A DNA stretch of 64,000 bases from contig PLYP01000001.1 of NCBI GenBank assembly GCA_003153395.1, forward strand, positions 1 through 64,000, given 5' to 3'. This document shows, one piece after another, positions 32,100-43,740 of the stretch. Each line of letters begins with the position of its first letter. Position 1 is the first letter of the stretch. The translations under genes and the position numbers were made by a program. Origin of the DNA: Candidatus Saccharimonadota bacterium. GTDB lineage: Bacteria; Patescibacteriota; Saccharimonadia; Saccharimonadales; UBA4665. The notes beneath the pieces are model-generated. The model saw only the letters and a program-made list of their open reading frames with translations. It had not been told where the DNA came from and ran no database searches.

Positions 32100-32400
32100 T
32101 CAAAAGTTTTCCACACGTTTTTCTCTAAAATGAAGACTTTTTAAGTATTTAACAGCTATAAAGTCTGCTAAGGATATATAGTTTTACACATGAAAGTAAT
32201 CCATCTGTTCTGATTGTGGATAATACCAATACTTCAGTGGATAAAAACCTCGATTTAGTGATAAAACATTGTCAAATCTACCCCGAATTTAAATAATCTA
32301 CTGCTGACTTTGGTTTAACCAAGGAGTCGTCTAAAAGCCTAGTTTATTAAATAAATATTAAAACTATTTCAGCTAGTCAAAATCTAAGCTTTACTTTACA
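32100..32400. other. Probable replication origin (oriC) with DnaA boxes
   Basis: The 409-base gap between dnaA and rpmH has no gene. It holds one perfect DnaA box (TGTGGATAA, 32215-32223, reverse), two 8/9 matches (TTTTCCACA at 32107-32115; AGTGGATAA at 32236-32244) and a 7/9 match (TTTTACACA at 32182-32190). A very AT-rich stretch at 32341-32370 is a candidate unwinding element. The position between dnaA and rpmH is a standard bacterial oriC site. Confidence 0.75.
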
Positions 32401-32618: not shown

Positions 32619-32966
32619 ATGCTAAATAGGCAGCACCGTTTTCACGGTTATGGTAGCTTGCGACGGGTATATAGCAATGGTAATAGTGCTAGAGGATCAT
32701 TAGTCAGTCTTCGTTATGCGATGCGTAAAGACAATAAACCATACCGGGTAGCTGTTGTAGTTGGACGTAAAGTACATAAGTCAGCTGTAAAGCGAAATAG
32801 GATTAGAAGAAGACTCTATGAAATTATACGTCGCTCAAATGATGTTCCAGAATCAACGGATTTAATTTTCACGGTATATAGTGATCGGGTTGCAGAAATA
32901 CCTGCCACAGAACTAGAAACCATGATTAATGACCTTTTAGTAAAAACATCGCCCAGCACCTCTTGA
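32619..32966 (+). CDS. rnpA: Ribonuclease P protein component
   Basis: 115 aa. The family RNR motif appears as KSAVKRNRIRRRLYEIIR at about residues 52-69, and the N-terminal RVYSNGN and SLRYAMR segments fit the substrate-leader-binding face. It partners the RNase P RNA to mature tRNA 5' ends. It follows rpmH directly. No RNase P RNA gene was found in the window. Confidence 0.95.
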   Translation: MLNRQHRFHGYGSLRRVYSNGNSARGSLVSLRYAMRKDNKPYRVAVVVGRKVHKSAVKRNRIRRRLYEIIRRSNDVPESTDLIFTVYSDRVAEIPATELETMINDLLVKTSPSTS

Positions 32967-33014: not shown

Positions 33015-33965
33015 ATGTTTACCGTTTTCATCGTAAAGCCGATCTTTAATTTACTTGTGCTCGTTTATGCACTTCTGCCTGGGCATAACTTCGGTTTAGC
33101 CCTAATTATCTTCACAATAATTATACGTTTACTTCTCTGGCCTCTTCTTAAAAAACAACTTCATCAAGCCAAAGCCATGAAGAAGTTGCAGCCTGAGATT
33201 AAGCGCATAAAAAAAGAAACCAAAGGCAATAAAACCAAAGAATCCCAGATGCTTATGGAGCTATACAAAGAGCGCGGCATTAATCCATTTGCAACCTTCC
33301 CAACCCTTATCCTTCAGCTAATTGTTCTAATTGGACTTTATAGCGGACTTAGAAGAGTAATTAGCGATCCGCACGCCCTTGTTACCTTTGCTTATCCTGC
33401 TCTTCAGCATCTAGGGTGGATGAAAGTAATTGCACATAACATACACCGTTTTGATAACACCTTATTTGGAGTAGTAAATCTAAGCAGAGCCGCATTGAGT
33501 AAGGGCGGGGGAATATACTGGCCAGCCATGATAATCGTACTCGGTAGCGCAATAGCCCAGTATTTCCAGAGTAAGCAGCTTATGCCACAAGATAAAGAGC
33601 ATAGAGGACTGCGAGAGATACTTAAATCTGCAGGCCAAGGTAAACAAGCTGACCAATCTGAAGTGAACGCAGCAGTAGGAAGAAGTACCCGCTATTTCAT
33701 TCCTGTGATGATCTTCTTATTCACGGTTAATCTAGCTTCAGCATTAAGCCTTTATTGGCTAACTGGTGGAATTGTTGCCTATATACAACAGAGCTTTGTT
33801 CTTAGGAAAGACGAGGAGGAAATGGAAGAAATTGCAGATGCGCCAGACAAGCGAGATGTTTCTAAAATTCCTGAAGCCGAAATAATTGAAACTAAAGAGC
33901 TTAAGTCTCCAAAGAAGCTATCCTCCAAAAAGAAAAAAGCAAATAAGCGGAGGAAACGCTCATGA
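33015..33965 (+). CDS. yidC: Membrane protein insertase YidC/Oxa1
   Basis: 316 aa with about five membrane helices, the size of Gram-positive-type YidC without the large periplasmic domain. Helix 1 is near the start, the cytoplasmic coiled segment KQLHQAKAMKKLQPEIKRIK is at about 50-70, and later helices include NPFATFPTLILQLIVLIGLY. The C-terminal 50 residues are Lys/Arg-rich (KKKKANKRRKRS), a ribosome-binding tail. It inserts proteins, alone or with Sec, likely including the numerous pilin-like and GT-C proteins here. Its TGA overlaps the khpB ATG. Confidence 0.95.
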   Translation: MFTVFIVKPIFNLLVLVYALLPGHNFGLALIIFTIIIRLLLWPLLKKQLHQAKAMKKLQPEIKRIKKETKGNKTKESQMLMELYKERGINPFATFPTLILQLIVLIGLYSGLRRVISDPHALVTFAYPALQHLGWMKVIAHNIHRFDNTLFGVVNLSRAALSKGGGIYWPAMIIVLGSAIAQYFQSKQLMPQDKEHRGLREILKSAGQGKQADQSEVNAAVGRSTRYFIPVMIFLFTVNLASALSLYWLTGGIVAYIQQSFVLRKDEEEMEEIADAPDKRDVSKIPEAEIIETKELKSPKKLSSKKKKANKRRKRS

Positions 33966-34441
33966 ACGAATCCATGGAAGAAGCAATCGTATATGCTAAA
34001 AAATATTTAGAAGACCTCCTATCTTTCTTTGGCCTTAATACTGATGTATATGCAACTAGTGACGACGAAGTAATTCAGCTTAATGTACCTAGCACACACC
34101 TCAACGGATTCTTAATCGGTCAGCGCGGTGAGAATATGCGCTCCCTCCAGTACCTTACAAGCACAGCACTTAAGAATAATAATTTCGCGCACAGTCGGGT
34201 TAATGTAGACATTGCGGATTATAAAAAACAGCGTGCCGAAAGACTTAGAGAAAAAGCTGAGGATTGGGTTAAGAAAGTCCGTGACTCTAAGGAGTCTATG
34301 AATTTGGATCCCATGAACGCCGCAGATAGACGAGTAGTGCATCAGTTGTCCGCTGAGTACGGAATTACTAGTGATTCAGAGGGTGAAGGCAGAGACCGTC
34401 ATATAGTATTAAGACCTCCAACCGACGATAAAGAGGAATAG
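33962..34441 (+). CDS. khpB: RNA-binding protein KhpB (Jag), short form
   Basis: 159 aa. A KH domain covers about 30-95 with the GxxG loop in GFLIGQRGENMRSLQYL. An R3H domain covers about 100-155 with RVVHQLSAEY and GRDRHIVLRP. The N-terminal Jag_N domain of longer homologues is absent. It binds RNA together with KhpA in Gram-positives and affects cell growth and division there. It overlaps yidC by four bases, the usual coupling at this locus. Confidence 0.93.
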   Translation: MNESMEEAIVYAKKYLEDLLSFFGLNTDVYATSDDEVIQLNVPSTHLNGFLIGQRGENMRSLQYLTSTALKNNNFAHSRVNVDIADYKKQRAERLREKAEDWVKKVRDSKESMNLDPMNAADRRVVHQLSAEYGITSDSEGEGRDRHIVLRPPTDDKEE

Positions 34442-34445
34442 TTAA

Positions 34446-35615
34446 ATGCCACGTAAAAGGCTGTCAGAGTTTCGTGCTAAATCTATTTTATATAAAGCTT
34501 TAGATGAGCCGTATAGCGGCTGGGAATTTAACTCGGAAGAGGATTGGCAAGCTAACCTAGACGCACTTCCAGACAATCAGAACTACGTAGTTAAGGTAGA
34601 CCAGGCTGAAAAAGGAAGATTTAAGAAAGGCCTAGTAAAACTAAATAGAAATAAAAGTGAAGCTACGAGCGATCTAGATGAATTATTTAATGCCGGATAT
34701 CAGTTTGCGTTAGTTGAGCCATATGAAACCCACGAAGACAGCGAAGAAAGATATTTTTCCCTAGAGAGAACCCGTGATGGTATTAAAGTTTCCTACTCTC
34801 CCTCGGGTGGAATAAATGTAGAAGAGAATAGCGATAGCATAACCCATGAAGTATTTACAGGTGAGCCATTAAGTGGAATAGATGTAGATACCAAAAGCCT
34901 AAGTTCTTTAGTAGATGCTTTTCAGTCAAACTACTTCAGCTTTTTAGAAATTAACCCCCTTGTTATTAAGGATGAAAAGCTATACCTGCTTGATGCCGCG
35001 GTAGAAGTAGATAACGAAGCGGAGTTTTTTGAAGAAAACTGGAAAGCCAGCGATCTAAGGCGACCTAAATCTAAAGCAGAGTCACCCGAAGAACTATCAG
35101 TTCAAGAACTGGCAAGCAAAAGCCAGGCCTCCTTTAGTCTGGAAGTAATTAATCCAAACGGTAGAATATTTGTTTTGCTTTCTGGCGGCGGAGCGAGCGT
35201 AGTTGTAGCGGACGAAGTATATAACTTAGGCAGCGGTAAGGAACTAGGCAATTACGGAGAATACTCAGGCAACCCTAATTTGGAGGAAACAGAAATATAT
35301 ACCGAACAAGTTGTGAAACTACTTTTAAAATCTAGCGCAAATAGCAAGGTTTTAATTATTGGCGGAGGGGTTGCTAACTTTACCGACGTAAGGATAACTT
35401 TTAAGGGCGTAGTTAACGCTATTAAAAAACATGAAGAAGAACTCAGAAACCAAGGTGTAAAAGTTTATGTAAGAAGGGGAGGGCCACACGAAAAAGAAGG
35501 CCTAGAAGCTATTAAAAGCTATTTAGAAAAAGCCAATATTGCCGGATATATTGCCGGTCCTGAGCTATTACTCTCAGACATCGTGAGCCTAGCTCTAAAG
35601 GGCGAGGGAAATTAA
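34446..35615 (+). CDS. aclB: ATP-citrate lyase, ATP-grasp/citrate-binding (small) subunit
   Basis: 389 aa, close to the roughly 400-aa AclB of green sulfur bacteria and to the N-terminal part of animal ACLY. An ATP-grasp domain covers about 1-200 (YVVKVDQAEKGRFKKG and FLEINPLVIKDEKLYLLDAA). A citrate-binding domain covers about 220-389 with LLSGGGASVVVADE, the NYGEYSGNP loop, IIGGGVANFTDV and VRRGGPHEKEG. The citrate-contacting residues known from human ACLY (GGAS, ANFT, the Arg of the VRRGG block) are all kept. With AclA it would convert citrate, ATP and CoA to acetyl-CoA and oxaloacetate. It starts four bases after khpB and ends one base before aclA, so the pair is tightly coupled. Unusual for this reduced lineage. 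Confidence 0.9.
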   Translation: MPRKRLSEFRAKSILYKALDEPYSGWEFNSEEDWQANLDALPDNQNYVVKVDQAEKGRFKKGLVKLNRNKSEATSDLDELFNAGYQFALVEPYETHEDSEERYFSLERTRDGIKVSYSPSGGINVEENSDSITHEVFTGEPLSGIDVDTKSLSSLVDAFQSNYFSFLEINPLVIKDEKLYLLDAAVEVDNEAEFFEENWKASDLRRPKSKAESPEELSVQELASKSQASFSLEVINPNGRIFVLLSGGGASVVVADEVYNLGSGKELGNYGEYSGNPNLEETEIYTEQVVKLLLKSSANSKVLIIGGGVANFTDVRITFKGVVNAIKKHEEELRNQGVKVYVRRGGPHEKEGLEAIKSYLEKANIAGYIAGPELLLSDIVSLALKGEGN

Positions 35616-35616
35616 C

Positions 35617-37401
35617 ATGCCTGAACTAAACATTGAAGAACTAAGAGATCTAGAGCCATTCATAGTCTGTCTGGGCAGCCATCCTTCCACCATCCAAGCC
35701 TTGCTAGACTTTGACTACCTTCTTGGCAGGGATAAGCCGTCAGTAAAAGTGATAATTGCAACCGGCCGAAAACATGAAAGATACTTTTTTGGTAAAAAAG
35801 AGATAGTAATTCCGGTCCTGGATTCTGTTAAGAAACTATCAGAAGAGGAAAAACAGTCAATCAATCTGTTTATTAACTTAGTTTCCGCTAGGCGAATACT
35901 TAGTTCCTCCAAAGAGCTTATTAGTATTGCGCCTAACCTTAGTGGCGGAGTAATATTTGGCGAGCGCTTGCCAGAAAAGCATGCATTAGAACTTTATGAG
36001 ACGATAAAACAGAATAATTTATGGATTCTAGGTGGCGCAAGTGTCGGGCTAGTTATACCTGGAAAATTAAAGCTAGGAGCAATTGGCGGAGTGGATTCTC
36101 GACAGTTTGAAGCCTCTAATCTTTTCGCTGAGGGACAAGTTGCCGTAATTTCTTCCTCGGGCGGTATGGTAAATGAGATTATAAGGCAGGTAGCAGATAC
36201 CAAATACGGCGTATCTTTTGCTTTAGCCGTCGGAGGAGAGCGTTTCCCGATTACCAGTCCTAAAGAAGCTATGTTATCAGCTGAAGCCGACCCAAACACT
36301 AAAGCTATTGCCTACTTTGGCGAACTTGGCGGGACTGATGAAGCTGACGTAGCTGACTTATTAAGATCGGGCAAGGTTACTAAACCAATAGTTGCCTATA
36401 TTGCTGGTACTGTGGCAGAACTTTTTGATACCCCACCTCAGTTCGGACACGCTAAGGCTATGGCTGGATCTCAGGCAGAAACTGCCAGAGCCAAGCGCGA
36501 ACTATTAAAAGAAGCAGGTGCAAAAGTTGGGGATTCCTTCGCAGATTTTATAAACTACTTAAGGAGACTGGATTTAATGAGTATAGACAACATTTCAAAA
36601 GACGCAGATGACTTACAGAACCGAAGCAAGGGCTTAATAGCTAGTTCTCTTTCATATGATGAAAACGGTGACGTTAAGATTCTTGGAAAAGACATACTCG
36701 ATCTAGCTGAAAATAGTTCCTTTGCGGCAATAGTAATTTCCATGCTCCTTGGTAAACAAGAGATAAGTAAGGAAACAGAAAACTTTACTGACTTTGTACT
36801 TCGCCTACTTGTTGACCATGGCCCATATGTATCCGGAGCTATGAACACAATTGTTACCGCCAGAGCCGGACGAGACCTTGTTTCTGCTTTATCGGCAGGC
36901 CTACTAACTATTGGGCCACGTTTCGGCGGAGCTATAAACGAAGCGGCTGTCATATGGCTTAAGGGTGTAAAAAATGAGCTTAAACCAAGCGAGCTAGTAG
37001 AAGACTATGCATCTAGAGGCGAGTACATATCTGGCATCGGCCACCGTAAGTATAGAGTAGATATGCCTGATCCTAGAGTCACAAAAGTCTTAAGCTTAAT
37101 AGATGGCCTTAAAGAACGTAAATTTACGAACTTTGCTAAGTCAGTAGAAGCAGAAACTTTGCAGAAAAAAGGAAATCTAATTCTTAACATTGATGGAGCT
37201 ATTGCGGCGGGGCTACTTGATGTACTACATGAGTGCGAAGGCTATGATTATGACGCGCTTGCTGAGCTAACAACACAAGAATTCTTTAACGCTCTGTTTG
37301 TTTTATCTAGAAGCGTCGGGCTTATGGCTCACTTTTTTGACCAGAAACGATTAGACGAGGGACTATTCCGGCTAAGCGATGATCAAGTCACCAAGCTTTA
37401 G
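35617..37401 (+). CDS. aclA: ATP-citrate lyase, CCS/citrate-synthase (large) subunit
   Basis: 594 aa, near the 608 aa of known bacterial AclA. A CoA-binding/ligase domain covers about 1-330, with the GGASVGLVIPGKLKLG block and the phosphohistidine segment PQFGHAKAMAGSQAE (about residues 269-283). That His matches the phosphorylated His of ACLY and succinyl-CoA synthetase. A citrate-synthase-like domain covers about 345-594, with DHGPYVSGAMNTIVTARAG, RFGGAINEAA, the active GIGHRKYRV, and NLILNIDGAIA. All main catalytic elements are intact, so an active enzyme is likely. The gene is convergent with the PIG-L fusion gene, 16 bases apart. Confidence 0.9.
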   Translation: MPELNIEELRDLEPFIVCLGSHPSTIQALLDFDYLLGRDKPSVKVIIATGRKHERYFFGKKEIVIPVLDSVKKLSEEEKQSINLFINLVSARRILSSSKELISIAPNLSGGVIFGERLPEKHALELYETIKQNNLWILGGASVGLVIPGKLKLGAIGGVDSRQFEASNLFAEGQVAVISSSGGMVNEIIRQVADTKYGVSFALAVGGERFPITSPKEAMLSAEADPNTKAIAYFGELGGTDEADVADLLRSGKVTKPIVAYIAGTVAELFDTPPQFGHAKAMAGSQAETARAKRELLKEAGAKVGDSFADFINYLRRLDLMSIDNISKDADDLQNRSKGLIASSLSYDENGDVKILGKDILDLAENSSFAAIVISMLLGKQEISKETENFTDFVLRLLVDHGPYVSGAMNTIVTARAGRDLVSALSAGLLTIGPRFGGAINEAAVIWLKGVKNELKPSELVEDYASRGEYISGIGHRKYRVDMPDPRVTKVLSLIDGLKERKFTNFAKSVEAETLQKKGNLILNIDGAIAAGLLDVLHECEGYDYDALAELTTQEFFNALFVLSRSVGLMAHFFDQKRLDEGLFRLSDDQVTKL

Positions 37402-37417: not shown

Positions 37418-40030
37418 CTATTGAGGGTTAGTGTATTGCCTATTTAAATACAGCCCAAATGTAGAGTCGAAATTGCATTGTTTAATTGTTTTACAAACTG
37501 CTGCATCATACTTTGAGTAAGCAAAATAGGCCGCTGCTTTAGCCGGTAGATCCTGAGCTGGAACATTAGCGGCAAAACCGTGCACAGGATACCCAATGTA
37601 GTATTTAATAGGGATGATTAACTGATTATTAAATTGCTCAGTTTCATATCGAGAGTAAACCCTCTTAACAAAACTACCCACTGTCATGTGATCACTGTGA
37701 TCAGAGTAGCGGGCACTTACATAATTAGCCTGAGTATGGATCTCGGTAGGCTGAAAAAAGTGCATAAGGCTATCTAATGCTGATACCAAATCACTTGAAG
37801 TATATTTAGACTGACCATCCACGCTGTGTATAGTTTGAATCTTACCGCTATATAGCTTCACCAAGCTTTCATGGTTAGTTGCTTTAAAGCCGTCGCCCTT
37901 TAAGTTACCGTCTGGCAAACGCATAAAAACAATCAGCAGGCTGCTGTTGCCCCTAGGGTTTGCAATGGTGACATATTGGTTGTTTGCTATTTTAACAATT
38001 CTCTCTTCCCAAATAAGTGAGCTTCCTGGAAGCATAGTATTGTAGGCGGATTCAGAACCTTGTTCACGACCTAACCAGTAGAACTTGTTATTACCCCCAT
38101 CTCCTGCGGTAACATAAATAGTACGCATACAATAACCGGCTTGTATGGCATGAATATTATCAGGGTTCATGAATAGTAAATCATCATCTTGATGGGCGAC
38201 TACTGTAAGCACCGTTGGCCTATTACATGGCTTATAGGGCAGGTCAGACAGATTGGTAGGCGCAATAGTATCTGACGGTTGTATAAGCGAAACTTTGAGC
38301 GGACCACTTTTATGAGCTCCGTTATCGTAGCGAAGAATTATTTCTTTAGGGCTGCTCACACTACCGGCAATGACAGTAGAAGAGTTAGGTTGACCGTAAG
38401 TAGTTACTACCTGCTTAAAGCTGCAGCTAGGATAGTTAGTAAGCTTTTGGTCTAAATTAAGTAAATACTCAAAACCTTGTTTATTTAAATTGTATTTCCA
38501 TGTCTTACTTGTAAGTGTGCTACGAGCTTGTGTGCAGTTCGCTAGAGGCATAATATTTAAATTTTTACCGGTTTGTAACTTTATCGGCAGAACTCGCCAA
38601 TAGTCTCCTACTAACACTTTTCCGTCACGGTTATGGAGCAGCTGTTTTATTTGTGAATCACGGTTTTTAATAACAGCCAGCGAAGCATTCTCAGAATGAT
38701 AAGCTCTGCTAGAAGTAAATATACCGAAAATAATACCGACTATTATTATTGCCCCAATAAACACTAAATATTCGCTTTTCCACTTACGACTTTTTGTGAA
38801 TACAGCTATTGCTATAAAAATAGTGAAGAAAGCTATAGTTAAATAACGAGCATCAACCGAGTATTGATGATTACTGAGTACAAATAAAAACAGTGCTATA
38901 GCAGTAGAAAAAACCATCATGATAAGTAGCTGAAAAGAGCTGTCGTTCTTAAATGCTGCATGCCTGGTAAGGAGAGAAGACCGAATAATACGGTAAAGAC
39001 AGTACAGGCCGGCTAGTAGAATTAGAATGTTAATTAAAAAGGCAAAACCGCCGAGACCGAACATGCGTGACAGCATCTGATGAGGAAATTGCCTTAAAAC
39101 TGTCGTATCATAAGCTGGATTTGCTCCAAAGTTAGTGAGTAGTCCAGTAATGCTATATACAATCCCTAAGAGTACATCATGCAAATTATGTGCTAAACCA
39201 TACGGACCAACCGATTGTTGACTAACAAGGTTTGTAATTTTTGTTACTGTAATCAACGCCTGAATACCTACTGCTGTTATAGCAGCGACTATGCTGCCAA
39301 GTAGCCATCTGCCTGAAATATTTGCCAGCTTCCAATTTTTCGTTAATGAATATGTTAAAAGAGCTAGAATTCCTCCTCCTATGGCTATGGATAAAAATAA
39401 TTTGTCACTAGCAATAAGCACACCTAGACAGAGTACGCCGAACCAAAAAGGCCAAGATTTAATTCGTTGTGCACGAACAAAAAGCATTAAGCTAGCTAAG
39501 TAGAACGCGTATTCAAGGTTACGTGTAGTAAGCATAGCCATATTAACAGGCAGCAGACCGCCGGAGTATGGCTGTGCAGGTATAAGCAGTAAGGTTGAAG
39601 CTAGTGCTAAAAATAGAGTTCCTAGTACAAGCGGACGGTGCTCAATGCGGTATAAAATAAACGCCAAAATAGCAATTGTTAAAAGCACTACTGAGACAGT
39701 AATTATTACAAAGCTTGCACTCGAGTATCCAAATAGCTTTATTAGGTAAAAAAGTGGCCATTTTAGCAAAAAGGTATGTGCGCCGGGAAACTGTGCGTTA
39801 TGAAAGGTTGAGGAGCTTTGAAATAGATAAGGATCCACTAGCTGATCAGCGTTAGAAAGCTGAAGGACAGCTCCTTTAATTGACCAAAAAAGAGTTGTTG
39901 CAAGCAGTATAAAGATTGAAGTGAATAGATAAACCTTAGCAAATAAAGCTGATTCTATTCGGACTACTAATTTTGCAATTAAAGGACTGTTCAGGAAGGG
40001 TAATTTACTCTGTTTTTTATTACGAACCAC
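37418..40030 (-). CDS. GT-C-like polytopic protein fused to a PIG-L deacetylase
   Basis: 870 aa. The first 450 residues hold about eleven membrane helices, and about 460-590 is an extracytoplasmic domain. From about 600 there is a PIG-L/LmbE domain: VVAHQDDDLLF is the AHPDDE zinc motif, TAGDGGNN follows, and ARYSDHSDHMTV (about 776) is the HxDH motif. PIG-L enzymes remove N-acetyl groups from sugars. The membrane part resembles the two paralogues at 57035 and 58797, which lack the deacetylase. A single protein that both handles a lipid-linked sugar and deacetylates it outside the cell is inferred. The start is GTG with a GAGGG Shine-Dalgarno. Confidence 0.78.
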   Translation of the reverse strand: MVRNKKQSKLPFLNSPLIAKLVVRIESALFAKVYLFTSIFILLATTLFWSIKGAVLQLSNADQLVDPYLFQSSSTFHNAQFPGAHTFLLKWPLFYLIKLFGYSSASFVIITVSVVLLTIAILAFILYRIEHRPLVLGTLFLALASTLLLIPAQPYSGGLLPVNMAMLTTRNLEYAFYLASLMLFVRAQRIKSWPFWFGVLCLGVLIASDKLFLSIAIGGGILALLTYSLTKNWKLANISGRWLLGSIVAAITAVGIQALITVTKITNLVSQQSVGPYGLAHNLHDVLLGIVYSITGLLTNFGANPAYDTTVLRQFPHQMLSRMFGLGGFAFLINILILLAGLYCLYRIIRSSLLTRHAAFKNDSSFQLLIMMVFSTAIALFLFVLSNHQYSVDARYLTIAFFTIFIAIAVFTKSRKWKSEYLVFIGAIIIVGIIFGIFTSSRAYHSENASLAVIKNRDSQIKQLLHNRDGKVLVGDYWRVLPIKLQTGKNLNIMPLANCTQARSTLTSKTWKYNLNKQGFEYLLNLDQKLTNYPSCSFKQVVTTYGQPNSSTVIAGSVSSPKEIILRYDNGAHKSGPLKVSLIQPSDTIAPTNLSDLPYKPCNRPTVLTVVAHQDDDLLFMNPDNIHAIQAGYCMRTIYVTAGDGGNNKFYWLGREQGSESAYNTMLPGSSLIWEERIVKIANNQYVTIANPRGNSSLLIVFMRLPDGNLKGDGFKATNHESLVKLYSGKIQTIHSVDGQSKYTSSDLVSALDSLMHFFQPTEIHTQANYVSARYSDHSDHMTVGSFVKRVYSRYETEQFNNQLIIPIKYYIGYPVHGFAANVPAQDLPAKAAAYFAYSKYDAAVCKTIKQCNFDSTFGLYLNRQYTNPQ

Positions 40031-40108: not shown

Positions 40109-40516
40109 TCACTCGTCGAATTTAAAGATACGTGTCCTATACAAATAAAAATTCCAAATAGTCGTAATTCCTAGCGCTATAGTTCTTGTCAAAACTGCAG
40201 GAATCGCTGGATACAAAACTTTTGTTACTAAAATTGTAAATCCAAAATTGAAGAATACCAGTAAACTAAATGCCACAAGTTGAGGGATAAGTATGTGATG
40301 ATGCATTCTTTTATCCTGAAAAGTAACTAGTTTCTGAAAACCGAACGAAACGATTAGACCTAGCCAAAAACTTAAGCCAACCGCAAAAACAGCAGTAGCA
40401 CCTAGCTTTTGAGCAACAACAATAACTAGTAGTTCAAACAGGTAAATGCTTCCACCAATAATAATATAGCGGTGAAATGGTTTTTTTAGCAGTTCGTTAA
40501 GTTTAGACTCCATCAT
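40109..40516 (-). CDS. GtrA-family membrane protein
   Basis: 135 aa with four membrane helices. The sequence begins near FHRYIIIGGSIYLFELLVIV and includes FQKLVTFQDKR and FYLYRTRIF, typical of GtrA-like proteins that cooperate with bactoprenol-sugar synthases, possibly flipping the lipid-linked sugar. It overlaps the preceding GT2 gene by 14 bases, a common pairing. Confidence 0.85.
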   Translation of the reverse strand: MMESKLNELLKKPFHRYIIIGGSIYLFELLVIVVAQKLGATAVFAVGLSFWLGLIVSFGFQKLVTFQDKRMHHHILIPQLVAFSLLVFFNFGFTILVTKVLYPAIPAVLTRTIALGITTIWNFYLYRTRIFKFDE

Positions 40517-41483
40517 TAGTCTTTATGCCAACAGACTGGTTGTAATCAACGACGTATAACGGACGTCCTTTACTCTGACTGTGGATGTGAGAGATATAAA
40601 GCGAAAGTATGCCCTGGGACATCAGCACAATACCTACCAAGAAAAGAATTAGTATCCCTAGCATGGCAGTTCCGGTAAATTTCCAGTGCAGCGGATCACC
40701 TAGTAATAATTGCTCAATCAATACGGCTAGACCCAATATAAAAGCACTAAAAGTAATAAGAATTCCCAAGTAACCGAACATATATAGAGGTTTAGGGCTT
40801 AATGACACAAAGCTATTAGCAGCTAAACGGATCAGCTTTCTATTACTATAGCTAGCATTACCGGCAATTCTTGGTCTTACATCAAAGCTAATGTACGTAG
40901 GCTGGAACCCTAGCCAGTCAATTAAACCTCTAGTAATTCGGTCAGTCTCTTCTATTGCGAGAAAGGCTTGTTGCACCGAGCGGTCTATAAGACGAAAGTC
41001 TGTAGCCCCTGACACTAGTTCGTTATTGGTAAGTTGATTGAAAATCTTATAAAACCAGTTAGAACTCAGACGTTTAATATAGTTTTCATTTTTACTCCTA
41101 CTGCGCAAACCTATAACAACGCGCGAACCTTTTTTCCATGATGCAATAAATTCTGGTAATAACTCCACAGGATGTTGACCATCGCCATCTATCATAATAA
41201 TAGCTTGGCCTTTTGCTACTGAAATGCCAGCAGTCAACGCATTTTCTTTACCAAAGTTCCTAGTAAGTCTTAGTAGCCTAACTTTCTTATTACTGGCAAT
41301 GAATTTTTGAACAACCTTTGCGGTATCATCAAGGCTTCCATCATCACAATATATAAGTTCATAAGAATCCTTTGAAACAGCGTTAAGCTGTTTAACTAAT
41401 GCCTTATGAAAAGTCGCAAGTCCCGCAGCTTCGTTATAAAGCGGTACTACTACAGATATAACCGGAATTTGCAATTCTTCCAT
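40503..41483 (-). CDS. GtrB-like polyprenyl-phosphate glycosyltransferase (GT2)
   Basis: 326 aa from the ATG at 41483. The GT2 catalytic domain shows ISVVVPLYNEAAGL, DDGSLDD and MIDGDGQHP (metal-binding acidic cluster). Two C-terminal helices (about 230-300) anchor it, ending YISHIHSQSKGRPLYVVD, as in GtrB/ArnC-type transferases that make undecaprenyl-phosphate sugars. An upstream TTG at 41504 is in frame, but a TATACT -10 lies at 41495-41500 (minus), between it and the ATG, so the ATG is preferred. It is coupled to the GtrA gene. Confidence 0.88.
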   Translation of the reverse strand: MEELQIPVISVVVPLYNEAAGLATFHKALVKQLNAVSKDSYELIYCDDGSLDDTAKVVQKFIASNKKVRLLRLTRNFGKENALTAGISVAKGQAIIMIDGDGQHPVELLPEFIASWKKGSRVVIGLRSRSKNENYIKRLSSNWFYKIFNQLTNNELVSGATDFRLIDRSVQQAFLAIEETDRITRGLIDWLGFQPTYISFDVRPRIAGNASYSNRKLIRLAANSFVSLSPKPLYMFGYLGILITFSAFILGLAVLIEQLLLGDPLHWKFTGTAMLGILILFLVGIVLMSQGILSLYISHIHSQSKGRPLYVVDYNQSVGIKTNDGV

Positions 41484-41522
41484 ATAACACGTCAAGTATA
41501 CCAATAAATTGGATAATTACTC

Positions 41523-42626
41523 TTATGAAACCTTATTACCTTGTAATATTTGGTTATACAATTTCAAGGTTTTCTCAGCCATGGTCTGCCAGGAATACTT
41601 TTTTGCCTGTTCTTTACCTGCAATAATAAGTTTCTGCCTTAAGTTTTTATCTGTTAATACTTCGCTTATGGCATCAGAAATTGCTTGAACGTCCGTCGGG
41701 TCAAAGTAATGCGCCGCCTCCCCATAAATTTCAGGCAGACAAGTAGCGTTACTACTCACTACTGGCGCTCCGTGCATCATCGCTTCTAGTCCTGGCAAAC
41801 CAAATCCTTCACTTAATGATGGAAAAACATATGCCTCGCAGGTTTCATATAACCAACGAAGCTGTCCTTCGCTAACAAAGTCAGTAAAAACTATGCCTCC
41901 AACTCCTCGTTTTGCAGCACTTTCTCTAACCCTCCTATAATTAGCGTCTTCCTTGCCAGCCAAGACGAGTTGTAACTGCGGGTGTTGGGATTTGAGTAAC
42001 GCGAAAGCATCAATTAGTCTTTCAAGGTTTTTATGAGGAGTTGGTCGACCGACATACATAATAAACTGTTTATTCAATAGTTCAGGCAATGGTTCCAGGG
42101 CTTGGTTGATTGCCTCACTTGCCTCATATATAACATTAATTTTCTGCTCTTTTACCCCAAAGAAACCAACAAGCTCCTTTTTAACGAACTCCGAAGGCAC
42201 GATTAAATCTTCAGACTTACTTGCAGCACGTTTCATAACCCATTCGAATATTTTTTGTTTTAGTCTAAAAACAACTAGATTTTTATCAGGATTAGTAAAC
42301 CTGAGCGTAGTTAGGTCATGAAAGGTGGTTACTGTTTTACCTCTATATAAGACGGGTTGCTGAGGGAAAGGAAAGTGAACCAAGTCAGCTTTAGTTTTTC
42401 TAATTTGCCTACCCAGACCAACTTGTTCAGCAAACGTAAATTCTTTAACTGGGCATTCTTCTTTTGTAAAGTTAGGGTTTGTTGGATTCCAGCCGTCAAA
42501 ATCAATCGGCTTAATAAGGACCACGTATTCATTAACTTTGTCTATGATCTGTAAATAATGCAGAAGACGTTCAACATACCGGCCACTGCTGGTTCTTAGC
42601 TCCCTAGCATCAATAACTATCTTCAT
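41523..42626 (-). CDS. GT4-family glycosyltransferase
   Basis: 367 aa with the two-Rossmann GT-B fold. The donor-side EGFGLPGLEAMMHGAPVVSS (E-x7-E motif) is at about 267-286, and FIMYVGRPTPHKNLERLI is at about 188. It likely adds a sugar, often mannose or rhamnose, to the growing surface glycan in the cytoplasm. A TATAGT -10 at 42634-42639 (minus) ends seven bases before the ATG without Shine-Dalgarno, suggesting a leaderless message. It is divergent from gmd. Confidence 0.9.
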   Translation of the reverse strand: MKIVIDARELRTSSGRYVERLLHYLQIIDKVNEYVVLIKPIDFDGWNPTNPNFTKEECPVKEFTFAEQVGLGRQIRKTKADLVHFPFPQQPVLYRGKTVTTFHDLTTLRFTNPDKNLVVFRLKQKIFEWVMKRAASKSEDLIVPSEFVKKELVGFFGVKEQKINVIYEASEAINQALEPLPELLNKQFIMYVGRPTPHKNLERLIDAFALLKSQHPQLQLVLAGKEDANYRRVRESAAKRGVGGIVFTDFVSEGQLRWLYETCEAYVFPSLSEGFGLPGLEAMMHGAPVVSSNATCLPEIYGEAAHYFDPTDVQAISDAISEVLTDKNLRQKLIIAGKEQAKKYSWQTMAEKTLKLYNQILQGNKVS

Positions 42627-42741
42627 GTATAGAACTATACTAAAGGACGCTGTTGTTAAATAAAACTACCCTAATCATTATCTTATAGTTATAATTTCAT
42701 ATTAGACTAGATTACTGAGACGAATCGGAGGATATAACAAA

Positions 42742-43740
42742 GTGGCTAAACAAGCTCTAATTACAGGCATAACTGGTCAAGACGGTTATCACTTAGCAGA
42801 ATTATTAAACGAAAAAGGCTACAGCGTTTATGGCATTATTCGCGGTCAGCAGAATCCTAAGAAAAATCGCGTTGAACAAGAACAGCCATATGTAAAACTC
42901 ATTGAAGGGGATCTAACTGATCCGTCTTCACTAGTTCGAGCTATGGAAATTTCTAAGCCTGATGAGGTGTACAATCTGGCAGCTATTAGTCATGTAGGCT
43001 ACTCCTTTAAGACTCCACAGCTAACTGCTGACGTTACTGCTAAAGGTACTCTAAATATGCTTGAAGCAATTCGACTAAGCGGAGGAGCAAAAACCGTACG
43101 TTTTTATCAGGCTTCAACTTCTGAAATGTTTGGTGGGCTAGATTATAACCGACCAGGCAAGGGATACGACGAAGAAGCTTTATTCCACCCAAGAAGCCCA
43201 TACGGTGTCGCTAAACTTTACGCCCATTGGATTACAAAGAATTACCGTGAAAGTTACGATATGCACGCTAGCTGTGGAATTCTTTTCAACCACGAAGGTC
43301 CAAGACGAGGACTAGAGTTTGTAACAAGAAAAATCAGTAATGCGGCCGCTCGCATTCACCTTGGCAAACAGGATCACATTGAGCTTGGCAATCTAGAACC
43401 AAAGAGAGACTGGGGATATGCAGGAGACTACGTTGAGGGTATGTGGTTAATGCTCCAGCAAGATAAGCCCGATGATTTCGTACTTGCTACAGGCGAAACT
43501 CATTCCATAGGTGAATATTTGGATCTTGCATTCAAAGAAGTTGGTATTAATGATTGGAAGCCATATGTAAAACAAAACCCGGCGTTCATGCGACCGGCAG
43601 AAGTAGACATTTTGTTAGGGAATCCTTCTAAAGCTGAAAATGTTTTAGGATGGAAACGTAAAGTAGATTTTCCTGGTCTAGTTAAAATGATGGTTGAGTA
43701 CGATATTGGTTTAGAATCTGCCGGTAGCCTGAGCAGTTAA
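42742..43740 (+). CDS. gmd: GDP-mannose 4,6-dehydratase
   Basis: 332 aa. NADP-binding GITGQDGYH at the start, the catalytic TSEMFGG with Ser/Thr and Glu, YGVAKLYAH with the Tyr-x3-Lys pair, and NHEGPRRGLEFVTRKI, all classic for Gmd. It converts GDP-D-mannose to GDP-4-keto-6-deoxy-D-mannose, the branch point for rhamnose, fucose, colitose and perosamine. The GTG start follows a clear GGAGG Shine-Dalgarno. The enzyme supplies the substrate for the neighbouring Rmd-like reductase and ColD-like dehydratase; ManC at the end of the window makes its precursor. Confidence 0.95.
   Translation: MAKQALITGITGQDGYHLAELLNEKGYSVYGIIRGQQNPKKNRVEQEQPYVKLIEGDLTDPSSLVRAMEISKPDEVYNLAAISHVGYSFKTPQLTADVTAKGTLNMLEAIRLSGGAKTVRFYQASTSEMFGGLDYNRPGKGYDEEALFHPRSPYGVAKLYAHWITKNYRESYDMHASCGILFNHEGPRRGLEFVTRKISNAAARIHLGKQDHIELGNLEPKRDWGYAGDYVEGMWLMLQQDKPDDFVLATGETHSIGEYLDLAFKEVGINDWKPYVKQNPAFMRPAEVDILLGNPSKAENVLGWKRKVDFPGLVKMMVEYDIGLESAGSLSS

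Follow-up and report, generated by a model that had tools for sequence, protein, structure and literature searches.

An intact ATP-citrate lyase beside the replication origin of a reduced Saccharibacterium and its proposed tie to UDP-GlcNAc synthesis

In a 64,000-nucleotide stretch of a Saccharibacterium genome (the window), two adjacent genes, aclB and aclA, encode what is almost certainly a true ATP-citrate lyase (ACL) and not a succinyl-CoA synthetase (SCS) paralog. We propose, with some reserve, that the main job of this enzyme in this Saccharibacterium and its kin is to form acetyl-CoA from citrate for the synthesis of UDP-GlcNAc. The proposal is built on three observations: the identity of the enzyme and its residues, the absence of the usual acetyl-CoA routes among the families searched in the host genome, and the repeated linkage of aclBA to amino-sugar genes in relatives. 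The presence of aclAB in Saccharimonadia is known, as a 2025 paper lists it in passing as enriched in that class, without interpretation (PMC12577380). The likely purpose of ACL and its linkage are new; neither a role for aclAB nor the hexosamine linkage was found in the open literature searched.

The source genome comprises 920,509 bp in 11 contigs and is 100% complete and 0.09% contaminated. A sequence-only reading had placed the pair beside the replication origin of a reduced genome, and both the origin genes and the DnaA boxes were indeed found (Table 1). The genes dnaA, dnaN, and recF lie on the minus strand and rpmH-rnpA-yidC-khpB on the plus strand, and the perfect DnaA box between them is the only one in the window. 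The one- and four-base spacings given for khpB-aclB-aclA were confirmed by measurement, with 4 nt between the end of khpB and aclB and 1 nt between aclB and aclA. The further suggestion of a settled position after khpB stands in part. Synteny with the relative G352 (UBA5150), together with an AclA identity of 73% compared with 77–85% for housekeeping proteins, indicates that aclBA is resident in the lineage of the window and G352. A recent foreign insertion was rejected, as GC and GC3 are like those of the neighboring genes and comparison with G352 indicates purifying selection on AclA and AclB (pS saturated, pN 0.19–0.26). The setting itself, however, is not conserved: only G352 has the pair in the same position, the loci of aclBA in the remaining relatives are diverse, and the khpB operon is not supported as meaningful context beyond this one relative. 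A glycan-biosynthesis island begins at the PIG-L protein right after aclA and runs past the end of the window to glmS.

Table 1. Genes and sites around aclBA, with the glmS gene of the same contig
Feature	Coordinates	Strand	Basis or remark
dnaA	30690..32057	-	
putative oriC	32107..32244		between dnaA and rpmH; DnaA boxes: one perfect, two with a single mismatch
rpmH, ribosomal protein L34, 45 aa	32467..32604	+	sequence
rnpA	32619..32966	+	PF00825
yidC membrane insertase	33015..33965	+	PF02096
khpB, KH and R3H RNA-binding protein	33962..34441	+	upstream of aclB
aclB, predicted ATP-citrate lyase small subunit, ATP-grasp and citrate-binding domains	34446..35615	+	389 aa; Pfam, PDB, residues, AlphaFold/Foldseek
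aclA, predicted ATP-citrate lyase large subunit, SucD-like with phospho-His, and citryl-CoA lyase/citrate-synthase-like domain	35617..37401	+	594 aa; Pfam, PDB, residues
870-aa membrane protein, C-terminal PIG-L (GlcNAc de-N-acetylase-like) domain	37418..40030	-	PF02585 E 5e-10; convergent with aclA, 16 bp apart
GtrA, two glycosyltransferases, GDP-mannose 4,6-dehydratase-like	40109..43740		glycan island
glmS	G000:C8:67018-68838		29.6 kb from aclA on the same contig; within glycan island

Both open reading frames are intact and full length, and domains, structural matches, and catalytic residues agree with the complete ACL claimed from the sequence alone. AclB matches Citrate_bind (PF16114, E 6e-57) and, above the cut-off, the ATP-grasp family Citrate_synth_N (PF24948); AclA combines Ligase_CoA (PF00549), Succ_CoA_lig (PF13607), and Citrate_synt (PF00285) within its single chain. 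The nearest solved structures are the Methanosaeta and human ATP-citrate lyases (6hxi_A for AclB, E 1.3e-60; human ACLY for AclA, E 5e-98), well above succinyl-CoA synthetases. In a Foldseek search with the AlphaFold model of AclB (mean pLDDT 90), the first 27 matches are 27 ACLY chains; their TM-scores of ~0.5 are probably due to domain orientation. When aligned to human ACLY and numbered accordingly, AclB retains the citrate residues N346, T348, and R379 as well as F347, and AclA retains E599 and H760, the pair that acts in phospho-transfer, together with H900, H975, R986, and D1026 of the lyase. The motifs quoted in the sequence-only reading (GGASV, ANFT, VRRGG, PQFGHAKAM, and GIGHR) are all present and align with functional positions among these, the histidine of QFGHA being the H760 site. 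The ATP-grasp residues K58, R66, E118, N203, and D216, which that reading had not checked (nor had it checked E599, H900, R986, and D1026), are conserved in AclB as well. G67 of the ATP-grasp loop is a Phe in the window AclB and in half of the Patescibacteria homologs, and the ATP-grasp domain is shorter by about 35 residues (389 versus ~425 aa). The assignment of the two genes as an ACL pair is far beyond chance.

The window pair shares its domains and catalytic residues with the two-subunit ACL of Methanosaeta concilii and with human ACLY (6hxi, 6hxh), with AclA 33–34% identical. It differs from both in forming a separate, long-stemmed clade, in its shortened ATP-grasp domain with the G67F change, in having no reverse TCA cycle around it, and in its aclB-aclA order, found beside cell-wall sugar genes in relatives. 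The Chlorobium-type ACL of the reverse TCA cycle (6hxj) likewise has two subunits and would be expected to catalyze the same reaction; its similarity, however, is lower (157 and 217 bits versus 209 and 332), and the window host yielded neither a malate dehydrogenase (MDH) of the Ldh_1 type nor POR. The citryl-CoA synthetase (CCS) and citryl-CoA lyase of Hydrogenobacter (6hxq, 6hxp) perform the same overall chemistry in a layout that resembles the split sets of some Patescibacteria, whereas the window AclA is fused and CCS is a distant match (1e-14).

ACL is widespread in Patescibacteria, a point missing from the sequence-only reading. Within the class, AclA occurs patchily in 36 of 393 genomes, nearly always directly after aclB, and the weak matches beyond these 36 are SucD-like proteins. 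Its bearers include Saccharibacteria and, among more distant relatives, Levy-, Woese-, Roizman-, Magasanik-, and Kaiserbacteria. In a quick AclA tree, built without bootstrap and without SCS rows, 48 Patescibacteria rows fall on one side of a long branch (SH-aLRT 100), separate from the ACLs of archaea, Bipolaricaulota, and human, and the window sequence groups within this well-separated clade. In the PDB and Foldseek searches, ACLY matches stood far above SCS, which speaks against the kinship with SCS-like paralogs that had been named as grounds for doubt. Saccharibacteria do not form one clade within the Patescibacteria AclA group, which indicates loss, transfer, or both. The AclA sequences of three other Patescibacteria loci (L078, L079, and L176) fall with the archaeal-type group.

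Published reconstructions of Saccharibacteria show neither pyruvate dehydrogenase nor PFOR, and acetyl-CoA metabolism appears to be missing from these bacteria (PMC6031116). We searched the host genome family by family, with working controls, and found no 2-oxoacid (pyruvate) dehydrogenase E2, phosphotransacetylase (Pta), pyruvate formate-lyase, POR (PF01855), or AMP-forming acetyl-CoA synthetase (Acs); a search with AclA as the query also yielded no SucD/ACD paralog. Because none of these was found in a genome that is 100% complete, ACL is the only acetyl-CoA-forming enzyme detected in the host within the families tested. A malate/lactate dehydrogenase of the Ldh_1 family (PF02866), for which the sequence-only reading had recommended a search, gave no match; a reverse TCA cycle is thus not plausible in so reduced a genome and was rejected, the lack of POR pointing the same way. 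The idea that ACL runs with a partial pathway likewise found no support in the families tested. Across the class, Pta and ACL never occur together (Pta in 0 of 36 ACL genomes versus 100 of 393 genomes); we dropped this exclusion as proof because it is confounded by clade, with p 1e-5 by genome and p 0.22 by genus, and Pta is concentrated in two genera. Some relatives have neither ACL nor Pta, so the class must possess a further way of obtaining UDP-GlcNAc or acetyl-CoA. Acetate kinase (ackA) is present in the host without pta. Its gene adjoins that of a GNAT acetyltransferase other than the one discussed below (L192:101-1860).

The gene neighbors of aclBA in relatives point to amino-sugar synthesis. 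In a blind clustering of neighbors at 35 loci, glmS was among the commonest families, and hand checks and HMMs were used to identify the neighbors. In four loci (L120, L123, L126, and L128), glmS follows aclBA on the same strand after a gap of 2–13 nt; in four more (L054, L055, L140, and L146), it lies less than 2 kb away. The order aclBA-glmM-GNAT recurs in L062, L063, L065, and L125, glmM-aclBA is found in L068/L146, Levybacteria have aclBA-murB (L114–L118), and a Woesebacteria copy (L124) is flanked by nagB and yvcK. For a hexosamine/early-peptidoglycan gene set named after seeing the data, and with some short contigs in the counts, a member lies within 2 kb in 18 of 56 fused Patescibacteria ACL loci and 6 of 11 split ones. 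Among ACL loci of other phyla, mostly archaeal (no murB), the count is 0 of 42 (Fisher, 18/56 versus 0/42, 1e-5). Within 10 kb, glmS is found in 15 of 46 genomes and in 7 of 21 families (p 4e-7), where ~2.4% is expected. Eight changes are needed to place this linkage on the AclA tree, so it does not reflect one inherited cluster. No hexosamine link was seen at the ACL loci of the Magasanikbacteria, Roizmanbacteria, one Woesebacteria, and g47 group lineages. The rml genes, which need no acetyl-CoA, are also found near aclBA, and what the linkage really marks may be a glycan island. In two Patescibacteria loci, pta (L139) or an acetate-CoA ligase gene, acs (L119), stands directly beside aclBA.

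A second enzyme architecture shows the same association. In other Patescibacteria classes, a trio of SucC-, SucD-, and citryl-CoA-lyase-like proteins, the last with the Hydrogenobacter citryl-CoA lyase as its best PDB match, is encoded in operons with hexosamine genes. These combine the trio with glmS (L086, L102, and L103), with glmS-yvcK-GNAT (L084 and L099), or with a free-standing acetyltransferase domain corresponding to the C terminus of GlmU (L098).

The host's own aclBA is not directly beside a hexosamine gene, as glmM-GNAT lies on contig C1 and glmS 29.6 kb away within the glycan island. GlmU was not found in the host genome, the sole match being a weak one to a GalU-like nucleotidyltransferase. 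The host glmM gene overlaps a GNAT gene by 4 nt (L194:1399-3332, with the GNAT at 1399-2025), and this GNAT is 40–47% identical to that of the aclBA-glmM-GNAT operons in four relatives. It is the strongest candidate for the glucosamine-phosphate acetyltransferase that the genome otherwise seems to lack. Sequence matches were uninformative as to its substrate, with weak similarity to spermidine acetyltransferases.

Under our proposal, citrate would be taken from a host or the surroundings; in ~104 kb of contig C8, no citrate transporter was seen. AclB and AclA would then act as a heteromeric ACL that converts ATP, citrate, and CoA to acetyl-CoA, oxaloacetate, ADP, and Pi. GlmS would make GlcN-6-P and GlmM the 1-phosphate, after which an acetyltransferase, suggested to be of the GNAT type because GlmU is missing, would spend the acetyl-CoA on N-acetylating glucosamine phosphate, with the product passing through UDP-GlcNAc to peptidoglycan and surface glycans. 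We infer the direction of the reaction, the outside origin of the citrate, the GNAT substrate, and the fate of oxaloacetate. Such a role would resemble that of eukaryotic cytosolic ACLY, in which citrate-derived acetyl-CoA serves biosynthesis and not carbon fixation. That enzyme, a single-chain protein in a different cell plan, supplies acetyl-CoA for biosynthetic acetylation. More tentatively, a citrate-to-UDP-GlcNAc module might extend across Patescibacteria, with fused ACL or a split citryl-CoA synthetase and lyase recruited more than once to supply acetyl-CoA specifically for the amino sugars of the wall and, in some lineages, a GNAT taking over from the GlmU acetyltransferase.

An alternative with a minor but appreciable chance of being correct is that scavenged citrate feeds a general acetyl-CoA supply, for protein and tRNA acetylation, terpenoids, or O-acetylation of glycans, with no special tie to UDP-GlcNAc. 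GNATs of several kinds lie less than 2 kb from aclBA in 18 of 56 Patescibacteria and 5 of 11 split loci, and not only beside glm genes, as judged with a profile trained partly on the same loci; terpenoid functions are also enriched in Saccharimonadia (PMC12577380). Against a general supply stands the recurrence of glmS, glmM, murB, and yvcK as direct neighbors in two different enzyme architectures.

We regard as improbable the catabolism of host citrate for carbon and energy, in which oxaloacetate and acetyl-CoA would proceed to fermentation end products, as the sequence-only reading envisaged. Citrate cleavage, giving acetyl-CoA and oxaloacetate, is still the most likely direction for the enzyme, and acetate kinase is kept in the genome. 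No Pta was found to join acetyl-CoA to AckA, however, nor an MDH of the Ldh_1 type, and cleavage costs ATP. Apart from the pta and acs cases noted above, no energy-metabolism gene recurs beside aclBA, and the neighbors point instead to UDP-GlcNAc and peptidoglycan precursors. Operation in reverse, in which acetyl-CoA and oxaloacetate would be turned into citrate with a gain of ATP, appears highly improbable: the ACL reaction is near-reversible, and some sulfate reducers run it oxidatively, but the host genome yielded no other source of acetyl-CoA. A shift to another CoA ligation or lyase reaction, for example on a different tricarboxylate, could be read into the G67F loop, the shorter ATP-grasp domain, and the long stem of the Patescibacteria clade, but is scarcely credible given that ~30 homologs show no variation at any of the citrate, phospho-His, or citryl-CoA lyase residues checked.

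Saccharibacteria have N-acetylated wall sugars despite their reported lack of acetyl-CoA metabolism (PMC6031116), and ACL provides a concrete, testable answer to how this could be achieved. Citrate would then be a nutrient that dependent cells may take from their hosts, and the presence of ACL in such cells could no longer be taken as evidence of carbon fixation. If the broader module is real, it would explain the acetylation of wall sugars in cells believed to be without acetyl-CoA metabolism and make scavenged citrate a point of host dependency.

Some loci in the survey depart from the common pattern. In family f2 Saccharibacteria (L091–L096), the origin-proximal rnpA-yidC-khpB/glycosyltransferase neighborhood, in which the window has ACL, contains instead a SucC/SucD-like pair that has no lyase domain. 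AclA of L075 (G004) is split over two frames (129 and 440 aa) in a genome without glmS above the cut-off, reflecting decay or an assembly error. A record titled Gemmatimonadetes (L144) carries AclA and AclB of the Patescibacteria type, indicating either transfer or mis-binning.
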